DNA of 64,000 bases from Mesoplasma seiffertii ATCC 49495. Lineage in GTDB: Bacteria; Bacillota_I; Bacilli_A; Mycoplasmatales; Mycoplasmataceae. The DNA is taken from positions 3,866 through 67,865 of the forward strand of contig NZ_KI912485.1 in the NCBI RefSeq assembly GCF_000518725.1, given 5' to 3'. Positions 17,065 to 64,000 of the stretch are shown here, piece after piece. The notes under the pieces are model-generated. The model made no database searches, had not been told where the DNA came from, and saw only the letters and a program-made list of their open reading frames with translations. How positions within the stretch are numbered: position 1 is the first letter of the stretch; every line of letters starts with the position of its first letter. The translations under genes were made by a program, and so were the position numbers.

Positions 17065-17949
17065 ATGAAAATACAACAAACCTTTAAAAATAATTGACCA
17101 ACTATTTATCTTGTAGGGACTCCAATTGGAAATTTAGATGATATGAGTACTAGAGCAATTGAAGTTTTAACTCAGGTGGAAATAATTGCTTGTGAAGATA
17201 CTCGCAACACTCAAGTCTTATTAAATAAATTTAAAATTAAAAACAAGTTAATGTCATTGCATATGCATAATGAAATTGATCGAGTTAATGAGATAAGCCA
17301 AATTCTTAGTCTAGGTAAGTCAATCGCGATTGTTTCTGATGCGGGTGCACCAATAATCTCTGATCCCGGAGCAGCATTCATTAATAAAATGAATCAGACT
17401 GAAATTGAGTTTAATGTCACTGCTGTCAACGTTGGTCCAGCATATATTCATGCAATTGTTGCTGCTGGATTTACTAATAAACAAAATTACTTCCATGGCT
17501 TTATTGAACATAAAACTGAGCAAGCCAAAAAAGAAGAGTTGGTATCAATTATTAATAAGTATAATGATCAAGCTATTATTAGTTTTTATGAATCAGTACA
17601 TCGAATTAAAGCGACAATTAAAATGCTAGCAGATATTTTAAATCCTACTCAAAAAGTTTTAATTGCCCGAGAGTTAACTAAACTCAATGAGGAGTTTATT
17701 AGTGGAACACCTTTGGAACTTGCTGATTTTGTTTATTCGGAGAGTTTTATTGAAAAGGGAGAATTTGTTATTGTAATTGACCAATTTGCTAATCACAAAA
17801 GTGACTTAACTGACCAAGAATTAGCAGACGAAGTTGCTAAATATTTAGAAAAAGGATTTAAACTAAAACAAGCAAGTGAAGCAGTAGCAAACTTATATAA
17901 TAAGAAAAAAAATGAAGTTTATAAATTATATTTAGATTTTTACAAATAA
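17065..17949 (+). CDS. rsmI: 16S rRNA (cytidine-1402-2'-O)-methyltransferase RsmI
   Basis: 294 residues; ATG 17065 after AAAAGGAG. SAM-dependent tetrapyrrole-methylase-fold enzyme that 2'-O-methylates C1402 in the decoding centre of 16S rRNA. Motifs: YLVGTPIGNLDDMS at the N-terminus, IIACEDTRNT, VSDAGAPIISDPG, and FYESVHRIKATI with ARELTKLNEEF. The region after VNVGPAYIHAIVAAG is standard. The first TGA (Trp) at codon 11 hides the true start in the standard code. The GG-leader gene follows after 25 nt, probably on the same transcript. Confidence 0.95.
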
Positions 17950-17974
17950 TTCCTAATCCTTTAGGGGTGGAATA

Positions 17975-18307
17975 ATGAAAAAAATGTCTGAAATTGAAAT
18001 GAAAGAAGTTGAAGGTGGTGCAGTCAGCGGAGCTTTCCTGGCAGGATTAGGAAAACTTATTAGTGCATCAACTTTAGTTGTAAGTGAAATTGTAGGAACC
18101 TTACTGGGAATTAGTGTTATCAATAATCATCCAAATAAAGGTAGTTTCAAAGTCGGTTCAGTTAGTGGTTCTTGAGATGACACTGCAAGACTCAAAAATT
18201 TAGATACTGTTCATTTAACTGATAATTATCAAACTGAAAGTCATCAAGAAAGTTTAGAACAAAGCCCTACGGAGTTCGAGACTTCTGAACTTTGTGACTT
18301 TATTTAG
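17975..18307 (+). CDS. Double-glycine-leader protein, bacteriocin- or signal-peptide-like
   Basis: 110 residues; ATG 17975 after AGGGGTGG. Residues 4-15, MSEIEMKEVEGG, fit the double-glycine leader consensus LSxxELxxIxGG at each constrained position (hydrophobic -12, S -11, E -8, M -7, V -4, GG -2/-1). The following ~45 residues are Gly/Ala/Ser-rich and hydrophobic (AVSGAFLAGLGKLISAST ...), resembling two-peptide bacteriocin precursors with GxxxG-like spacing. The tail from ~70 is polar and acidic (Gln/Glu/Thr-rich, ending ELCDFI), which is unusual and makes the predicted mature part ~95 residues. No C39-peptidase ABC exporter, immunity or modification gene lies nearby. Family match is by motif only; function unproven. 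Confidence 0.6.
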
Positions 18308-18475: not shown

Positions 18476-18802
18476 ATGTTCGCAATCATTAAAACTGGTG
18501 GTAAACAAATTAAAGTGGAATCAGGACAAGAAATCTACATCGAATTAATTGGTGGAGAAGCTAATGATAAAGTTGTCTTTGATGAAGTATTAATGGTAGA
18601 TGGTAAATTTGGAACTCCTTTTGTTAAAGGAGCTACAGTTACTGGTACAATTGTAAAACATGGTAAAGGTAAAAAAATCCGTGTAGTAAGATATCACCCA
18701 AAGAAAAATGTTAATAAAGTGTATGGTCATAGACAACCTTTTACAAAAGTTGTTATTGATAACATTTCTGTAGGAACTGCAAAATCAGAAGCAGCCAAAT
18801 AA
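18476..18802 (+). CDS. rplU: 50S ribosomal protein L21
   Basis: 108 residues, normal length; ATG 18476 after TGGAGGAAATAT. Starts [18 protein letters not shown], the L21 signature, and ends in a basic domain with [17 protein letters not shown]. Binds 23S rRNA in the large subunit. First gene of rplU-prp-rpmA, a conserved Firmicutes order. Confidence 0.98.
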
Positions 18803-61013: not shown

Positions 61014-61077
61014 CTTTATAGCATAAAATCGTTTAAAATGATAAGATTAATACAATAGAAAAAAGGTGAAGAAAATT

Positions 61078-63024
61078 ATGTCAGAAATAGATCACATTGA
61101 AGATGCCCAAGATCATGAGAAGTATACAAGATCTTCTTCTCCAAAAGACCATATGGAAAAAATTTTAAATCCTCAAGAAGAGGCAGCAAGAGAATTTGTT
61201 GAATCTTCAAAAAGATTTAAAAAGGCTGGGAAAGGGTCATTTTATAAACTTGTTTTTAGATATATGATTAGAAACAAGTGATGAACAATTGGAATTTTAA
61301 TATCAGTAGTTATTGTTGCGGTTTCAACAGCAATTACGCCAAAAATTATTGAGCAGTTAATGCTTTCTGTAGAATATAAAATTAAAAATAAACTTGATTT
61401 AGACTCAGCAAATAAATGATGAGGATTACAATGACAATCGGTTGTTTATATTCAATTAGGATTTTTAATATTATTAGCGGCTTCAACATATTGCTCACAA
61501 TGAATTGCAGGAATGTTGGGAAAACAAATTGAAGTTGATTTGCGAAATGATATTACTAAAAAATTAATTGAGTTAGATATGTCATATTACTCTGATAAAA
61601 AAATTGGAGAAATCCTAACAAAAGTTGTTTCTGATACTCAAATTTTGGGAGAACAAACAGGAATTATTCCGGTTACTACTTTGACCGCGTTATTAACTTT
61701 AGTTTTTTCAATTATTTCATTGGCAACAATTGATGTAACATTGACTTTTGTTGCGATTGGATTATTTGTACTTATTTTTTCATCTTTTGGTTTAGCATAT
61801 ATACCTTTGAAAAAGTTATTGTATAACTTAAGAAAATCAATCACTAAAACAAATGGTAGCGTTATTGACCGTATTAATACTGTTAAATTGATCAAAGCTT
61901 CTGGAACTGAAAAATATGAATCAGAGCGTTTTGTTGAAATGCATAAAGAGTACCATGATAATTATAAAAAATTAAATTATTCTCAATCAGTAATGTTGAC
62001 AATTTTATTTTTGGGTATTAACTCAATTCAAATTATTTTAATTGTAATTGCTGCTTCTTTATACAAAGATACACCAGATTATTTAAAATTAATTTTGCCT
62101 TCATTAATCATTGCAATTGGAATGATGATTGGACCAATTATGGCACTTTTAAGAGTTGTTGTTGGGTTAATGCAAGCTGCAACTGCTGCAACTCGTATTG
62201 AGGAAATTTTAGAAGAAAAAACTCGCTTCAATAATCATTTTGAAGATAAACAAGGAATTCACATTGATAAAATTAGTGGAGATATTCATTTTAAAGATAT
62301 TACATTTTGTTATCCTGAAAAACCTGATAAGGTAATCTTACCTAACTTTGATTTCACTTTAAAAGAAGGGAAATCATATGCTTTTGTTGGAGAAACCGGA
62401 GCAGGAAAATCAACAATTTCAAAATTACTTTTAAGATTTTATGATCCAACTAAAGGACAAGTTTTAATTAACAATAATATTGATTTAAAAGATGTTTACT
62501 TATCATCATATTTAAATCATGTAGGATATGTTGAGCAAGAACCATCAATATTATTAGGTAATGTTTATGACAATGTTCGTTATTCTAGATTTGAGGCATC
62601 TGATGAGGAAGTTATTAATGCATGTAAAAAAGCTGAGCTTCATGAATTAATTATGAGTTGACCAGAAGGTTACAATACAATTTTAGGTGAACGTGGATTT
62701 ATGTTATCTGGAGGTCAAAAACAACGTTTGGTAATTGCCAGAATGTTTTTAAAAGACCCTAAGATTTTGATTTTGGATGAAGCAACTTCAGCCTTAGATA
62801 ATATTGTTGAAAAAGAAATTCAAGGAAAATTGGATGAACTAATGAAAGGGCGCACAACAATTTCAATTGCGCACCGTTTATCAACTATTAAAAATGTTGA
62901 TCAAATTATTGTATTAGGACCACAAAAAGGAATTGTTCAAATTGGAACATTTGAACAATTAAAAACAACACCAGGTCATTTTAAAAAGTTATATGATGCT
63001 GGTCAGTCTAAAAATGATTTATAG
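61078..63024 (+). CDS. ABC exporter half-transporter (first of a pair)
   Basis: 648 residues from ATG 61078 (AAAGGTGAAG upstream; an in-frame GTG 61066 is less likely). A ~60-residue charged N-terminus, six-TM ABC_membrane domain (~68-340), and NBD: Walker [11 protein letters not shown]-loop [11 protein letters not shown], signature [14 protein letters not shown], Walker [13 protein letters not shown], switch SIAHRLS. All ATPase motifs are intact. No C39 peptidase domain. Likely heterodimer with the next gene, as LmrCD/MdlAB pairs. Substrate (drug, lipid or peptide) unknown. Confidence 0.9.
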
Positions 63025-63050
63025 AATCGAATCTAGAAAGGGAGATTATT

Positions 63051-64000
63051 ATGACGAAACAAAAAAATAAGTTAAATTCACTTTTTAAATTCGATAGTGA
63101 TAAAAAATTCACATGAAAAAAAATGGGTAGTTTCATTAAAATTATGAATGAAGCAGCCAAAGATAATATGTTTTTATTTCTATCAATGGTATTTATTACC
63201 ATTTTTGATGCTTTATTAGCGGCTTTGTTACCAATAGCATCATCAGAAATGGTTAAAATTTTACTAAACAATGGAACTCCTGGATCTTTTTTAGGAATGA
63301 CAATGTACTGATATAGTTGAATTTATGTAGTACTAGTAATCATGTCAGTGATGTTAGTAGCAGAATATTTTACTAACGCAACAATTGGACTTTTTTCAGT
63401 AAAAATTGAGGTTATGCAACGTAATAAAATTTTGATTTCGTTAGTTAACCAAGATGTCGAATTTTTCTTTGACCATGTTTCAGGAAATATTATGACTCGT
63501 TTAGTAGCAGATACTCAAGGATTATCATTGGGAATTCAGCAATTTGTAACAAATATTATTTATTGTGTTACGGGATTAGTAGCATCACTAACAATTTTAT
63601 TCTTATATGGACAATTTTTAGTAGGTGGAATTGCACTAGGTTACATTTTTGCAGTAATTATTATTGCAACAATCATCTTTATCTTTTTTAGAAGAAAATT
63701 GATTATTGCATTTGATATAAAACGTGATGTGGATACTGACATGACAGATAGAATCGCAAATATTTCTTTAATTAAAGCTAATGGTTTAGAAGAATACGAG
63801 ATTCAGCGTTTAGAAAAAATGAATAACAGATATAACCGTTCAAGTGATGTTGTTGTAAGTTTATCAGCACTATTAAACTTATGAATTACAATAACAACTT
63901 CATTTTTATCAACTTTTATTATTATCATTGCTGCATTAAAAGCTATTAGTGGAGATCAATCAATTATGAGTGATTTAGTATTAGCGTTACCATTGCTTTC
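63051..64000 (+). CDS. ABC exporter half-transporter (second of a pair), cut by window end
   Basis: ATG 63051 after AAAGGGAG; open to the window edge (316 residues visible). Shows the N-terminal charged part and ABC_membrane TMs, with MQRNKILISLVNQDVEFFFDHVSGNIMTRL, the conserved coupling-helix pattern, and DRIANISLIKANGLEEYE. NBD lies beyond 64000. 26 nt after its partner, so co-transcribed and probably the other half of the heterodimer. Confidence 0.88.

Follow-up and report, generated by a model that had tools for sequence, protein, structure and literature searches.

A double-glycine-leader protein encoded beside rplU in Mesoplasma seiffertii, a probable housekeeping substrate of a C39 peptidase protein lacking ATPase motifs

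We analysed a window of 64,000 nucleotides of Mesoplasma seiffertii ATCC 49495 DNA, to which all coordinates below refer unless a contig or locus is named. The gene at 17975..18307 on the plus strand (stop codon included) encodes a protein of 110 amino acids that begins with a double-glycine (GG) leader. Comparisons of sequence and gene content make us fairly confident that this precursor has a housekeeping role at the membrane or surface and is the substrate to which the only C39 peptidase protein of its genome is dedicated, and that the removal of its leader and its release probably occur independently of ATP in the clade concerned.

The open reading frame is real under translation table 4, as the frame itself, a family of relatives and a Ka/Ks of 0.12 against the nearest relative all indicate. 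The single TGA among its 110 codons (18173..18175, plus strand) is read as Trp67, in a column that holds Trp or Phe/Tyr in most relatives. A Shine-Dalgarno-like AGGGGTGG is found at 17963..17970, and the frame opens 25 nt past the end of the upstream gene (17065..17949), which we take to be rsmI. Downstream follow a ribosomal protein L21 leader RNA (RF00559, 18389..18467; 43.2 bits, E 1.3e-6) and the conserved L21 gene rplU (18476..18802), all on the plus strand. The precursor itself, read along the same strand, consists of the leader (residues 1–15, 17975..18019), with a predicted cut after Gly15; a hydrophobic Gly/Ala-rich core (residues 16–51, 18020..18127) with the sequence SGAxLxG, in which Gly19 and Gly24 are invariant in 18 members; the conserved KGSFKVGSVSGSWDDT motif (residues 55–70, 18137..18184), which is common to a second mycoplasma family; and an acidic variable tail (residues 71–110, 18185..18304) that differs in length between genera. 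The initial annotation had described a leader fitting the consensus without exception, a Gly/Ala-rich hydrophobic block, an acidic tail and a place directly behind rsmI, and in each of these points it proved accurate.

In the N-terminus, MKKMSEIEMKEVEGG, position -12 is Met, -11 Ser, -8 Glu, -7 Met and -4 Val, and both -2 and -1 are Gly, so that the GG-leader consensus stands directly before the mature part. The hydrophobic residues at -12 and -4, the Glu at -8 and the glycine pair are those of the known GG-leader substrates of C39 exporters, the class II bacteriocins and Com/Blp-type peptides. A strict GG-leader pattern, run on the 204 open reading frames of the window while profile searches covered the rest of the genome, matched the precursor alone, against 0.06 matches expected from shuffled N-termini. 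Among 49 family members a hydrophobic residue is found at -12 and at -4 in 96% each and Glu at -8 in 33. The two glycine counts, 43 for -2 and 46 for -1, are partly fixed because the leaders were anchored on a GG, AG, GA or PG dyad, so that only the other positions are independent. The retention of these consensus positions argues that the leader of the precursor is not a product of chance. Conservation extends through the leader, the hydrophobic core and a KGxxKxG..(W/F)DD motif, the acidic tail being the only variable part: between the precursor and its counterpart in genome G003 identity is 86% in residues 1–72 and 45% in the tail. Members of the entomoplasma clade discussed below (loci L002, L005, L011 and L016) tend to have longer tails, with total lengths of 102–137 amino acids; most Spiroplasma peptides have 85–108. 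A structure model of the peptide is of low confidence (pLDDT 60.5, pTM 0.28), and contains one long low-confidence helix over residues 6–51 and a hairpin (55–60/63–68) on the conserved motif with pLDDT of about 72.

Exactly one match to peptidase C39 (PF03412) was found in the genome, at 110935 on contig C1 and outside the window, so that the GG-leader peptide and a C39 protein occur together, as they do in the known GG-leader systems. The gene spans 110924–112786 of that contig (locus L051), between a DJ-1/PfpI-like gene and ybeY-era-recO. ATG, GTG and TTG are all absent before its catalytic Cys, with a similar situation in the nearest relative (L083), and ATT is the likely start codon. The Cys-His-Asp catalytic triad of peptidase-containing ABC transporters is intact, and the C39 domain resembles the double-glycine protease domain structures 6mpz (E 4e-7) and 7n87. 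The sole match to TIGR01847 in the genome falls on an ABC ATPase frame with no relation to this protein and is not significant. The initial annotation had stated that the ABC pair of the window lacks a C39 domain and that an exporter, if there is one, must lie elsewhere; no C39 domain was found in that pair (61066–64000), and the exporter candidate does lie elsewhere, though with a degenerate ATPase that had not been foreseen. Absence of any C39 peptidase, or conservation of the C-terminal part alone, had been named there as grounds for rejecting its interpretation. The genome holds a C39 gene and the alignment has the reverse pattern of conservation. A GG-leader substrate of a C39 protein encoded elsewhere is thus supported, with cleavage as a prediction.

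An initial search recovered homologues in 44 of 99 relatives. By profile search the peptide is present, in single copy, in 51 of the 60 genomes of the window's own family, with two profiles (A1 and A4) returning the same set, and in 114 of the 119 genomes of a second mycoplasma family (f7). The peptide profiles of the two families align with an hhalign E of 2.7e-13 over the leader, the core and a KGxxKxG..W(D/E)(D/N) motif. Within the window's family the gene lies no more than 1 kb from rplU in 35 of the 51 genomes and no more than 5 kb in 42, and it is also found directly before rplU in some f7 members, in Mycoplasma marinum and in Ca. Mycoplasma mahonii; this shared slot supports common descent. 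The C39 gene likewise has a conserved place: of the 55 loci that were readable in mycoplasmas and RF39-like Bacilli, 51 have ybeY as its immediate downstream neighbour, and three of the other four hold a broken C39 gene. No Pfam or NCBIfam model was reached by the precursor above its cut-off, and profile matches to unrelated families at E 0.006–0.2 were taken as noise. In one genome (G018) a second and different GG-leader frame, MKLLSLEQQKNLIGGGAWIVGS..., is located directly behind the family member (L021:1762-1983), and in a genome of family f3 (G121) there is a tandem pair of GG-leader frames with divergent mature parts (L302, reverse complement 1002-1687).

The peptide and the C39 protein are present and absent together. 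In the window's family 50 genomes have both, one has the peptide only, none has C39 only and eight have neither (Fisher p=4e-9, with relatedness ignored); the value is 4e-7 if broken C39 genes are scored as absent and the 85%-complete genome G009 is dropped. Genome G023, an apparent C39-only exception, was set aside and left out of this table, since its sequence of 793,224 bp lacks a match to rplU as well, despite 99% completeness. In f7, C39 is found in 117 of the 119 genomes. The joint absences are spread over several branches, at least four by our reading of a tree of L21, Prp and L27 in which the citri-like group is poorly resolved. Breakage can also be paired: in G036 the peptide gene is frameshifted and the transporter is split by an in-frame stop. 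Split C39 frames occur in G011 and G018, and in a Spiroplasma poulsonii-like genome (G052, L299) transposase frames and stops break the C39 gene while the peptide frame is intact. G052, G011 and G024 retain the peptide frame with C39 broken or absent, which we read as recent decay. Profile searches found neither gene in family f11, where the peptide profile may be blind. The pair is apparently old and vertically inherited.

The M. seiffertii genome groups with Mesoplasma photuris and 'Acholeplasma' multilocale, that is, with the entomoplasma group. Among the C39 frames of relatives, collected by HMM, almost every one read from Spiroplasma and f7 has Walker A, the ABC signature and Walker B. 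All three motifs are absent from the C39 protein of the present genome, from that of every entomoplasma-clade genome read and from that of G012; in a relative (G001) the protein has only 381 amino acids and the ATPase domain is wholly missing. In the tree of L21, Prp and L27 these genomes form one clade. The protein therefore resembles peptidase-containing ABC transporters such as LahT, ComA and PCAT1 in its C39 domain with intact triad, its transmembrane region and its ATPase-sized C-terminus, and differs from them in the loss of the ATPase motifs. Between the present genome and G003, Ka/Ks is 0.14 for the C39 domain, 0.13 for the transmembrane region and 0.18 for the ATPase remnant, and these low values indicate that the protein is maintained.

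The mechanism we propose is that the C39 domain cuts the precursor after Gly15 on the cytoplasmic side, and that the released product of 95 amino acids, with its hydrophobic segment, KGxxKxGxxSxxWDDT motif and variable polar tail, would be placed in the membrane, its topology and final location being predicted likewise. Where relatives have kept the ATPase intact, the C39 protein probably works as an ordinary peptidase-containing ABC transporter and exports the product. In the entomoplasma clade, with the ATPase motifs gone and the triad and purifying selection kept, what is conserved is probably that the leader is removed and the product released or inserted into the membrane, with no export driven by ATP. 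ATP-independence is probable here from the loss of the motifs, and an ATPase acting in trans could serve instead: export by the same pair would then still depend on ATP, with a further ABC protein, for instance the pair at 61066–64000, providing the ATPase. The purifying selection on the transmembrane region and the ATPase remnant agrees with such an arrangement, as does the presence of ABC pairs. However, none of the loci read has an ATPase gene next to C39, and the G001 protein and the RF39-like proteins described next wholly lack the domain, so we consider it unlikely.

Three further families of Bacilli (f16, f27 and f32), which we take to be RF39-like, contain a comparable pair. Their peptide has 58–60 amino acids, a GG-like leader in which Gly at -2 is often replaced (PG, VG, CG, TG), one transmembrane segment and a PGGxxFxW motif, and its gene stands in the order valS-peptide-radC-rplU. 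The C39 protein has 370–420 amino acids with transmembrane segments, is mostly encoded directly before ybeY and is without an ATPase in all 20 cases read. A C39 match is found in 49 of 50 RF39-like genomes with the peptide, versus 87 of 274 other genomes of the class. The C39 domains of mycoplasmas and RF39-like Bacilli align with E 3e-31, the transmembrane regions over only 78 columns and the peptides with an hhalign E of 5.7e-8; on these values the C39 proteins are likely to share an ancestor, and for the peptides common descent is plausible. The wider proposal would be that an ancient vertical pair, with the peptide by rplU and C39 by ybeY, spans both groups, and that through repeated loss of the ATPase an ABC exporter became a leader peptidase that acts without ATP on a housekeeping membrane peptide. 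We put this forward tentatively, holding it at slightly less than even confidence.

Other functions for the peptide must be weighed. Streptococci use GG-leader peptides in signalling, and the precursor could be envisaged as that of a secreted quorum peptide, with the C39 protein removing its leader. Precedents for GG systems outside the bacteriocins include GG proteins in Synechococcus biofilm formation (PMC4997328) and a C39 exporter in Nostoc differentiation (PMC10986499). However, no linked receptor or response regulator was found, and a 95-residue product with a membrane-like segment is bigger than the known GG pheromones, making a signalling role quite unlikely. The initial annotation had favoured a bacteriocin or a signal peptide, and the first of these fares worse. 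If the product were a class II bacteriocin of the classical kind, leaving the cell through the C39 transporter and killing competing mollicutes, this would account for the GG leader, which marks a substrate class typical of bacteriocins, and for the Gly/Ala-rich core with its GxxxG-like spacing. In contrast to class II bacteriocins and Com/Blp-type peptides, the present gene is single-copy, near-universal, apparently vertical and in a housekeeping position, and its product is longer. Between rsmI and rplU no immunity gene was seen beside it and no transport gene is linked, the transporter being about 89 kb away; the acidic tail is also atypical, and bacteriocin models in Pfam and NCBIfam gave only sub-threshold matches to the leader. 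The joint presence and absence of the two genes and their paired breakage agree better with a housekeeping protein and a C39 partner dedicated to it, and we regard a bacteriocin as very improbable. Finally, the loss of the ATPase motifs and the co-decay in Spiroplasma lineages might suggest a relic from which the ATPase was lost first, with peptide and C39 on their way out, but we give this almost no credence for the entomoplasma clade, where all genomes read retain both genes, Ka/Ks is mostly 0.1–0.3 and the triad is intact.

The nearest named model to our housekeeping-substrate family is the MPN313 family protein NF045747 (function unknown), which has the same GG-leader-like N-terminus and hydrophobic core and a different C-terminal part. 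A Spiroplasma TIUS-1 member matches it at E 4e-4, and the best score among the members scanned was 20.7 bits, against a curated cut-off of 100 bits. NF045747 members (L300, L301, L321-L325) begin with a GG-leader-like sequence, and the best matches to the model in family f3 begin with a GG leader, so MPN313 may be the member of the family in the M. pneumoniae group and possibly a C39 substrate there; we found no description of the MPN313 family as such in the literature. The logic of the ATPase-less pair recalls AgrB and AgrD, in which an ATPase-free membrane cysteine peptidase processes a leader-bearing membrane peptide. This is an analogy only; the families are unrelated and no homology is claimed. 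In the open-access literature we found no description of the peptide–C39 pair or of ATPase-less C39 proteins.

Breuer et al. 2019 (PMC6609329) described protein 0401 of the minimal cell JCVI-syn3A as a C39-peptidase transporter for which, as in other mycoplasmas, no GG-leader substrate was known, and gave it a tentative role in lipoylpeptide uptake. Protein 0401 is a mollicute C39-peptidase ABC protein of the same kind as the partner described here, the import proposed by those authors being the difference, and the present peptide family is a natural substrate candidate for it. The family thus offers a candidate for the missing substrate of mollicute C39 transporters in almost all genomes of two mycoplasma families, and it opens the question to direct tests. 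Should the form without ATPase prove functional, a peptidase-containing ABC exporter would have evolved to become a processing enzyme independent of ATP, and a role would be found for a protein family of near-minimal cells that is unnamed in the profile libraries searched.
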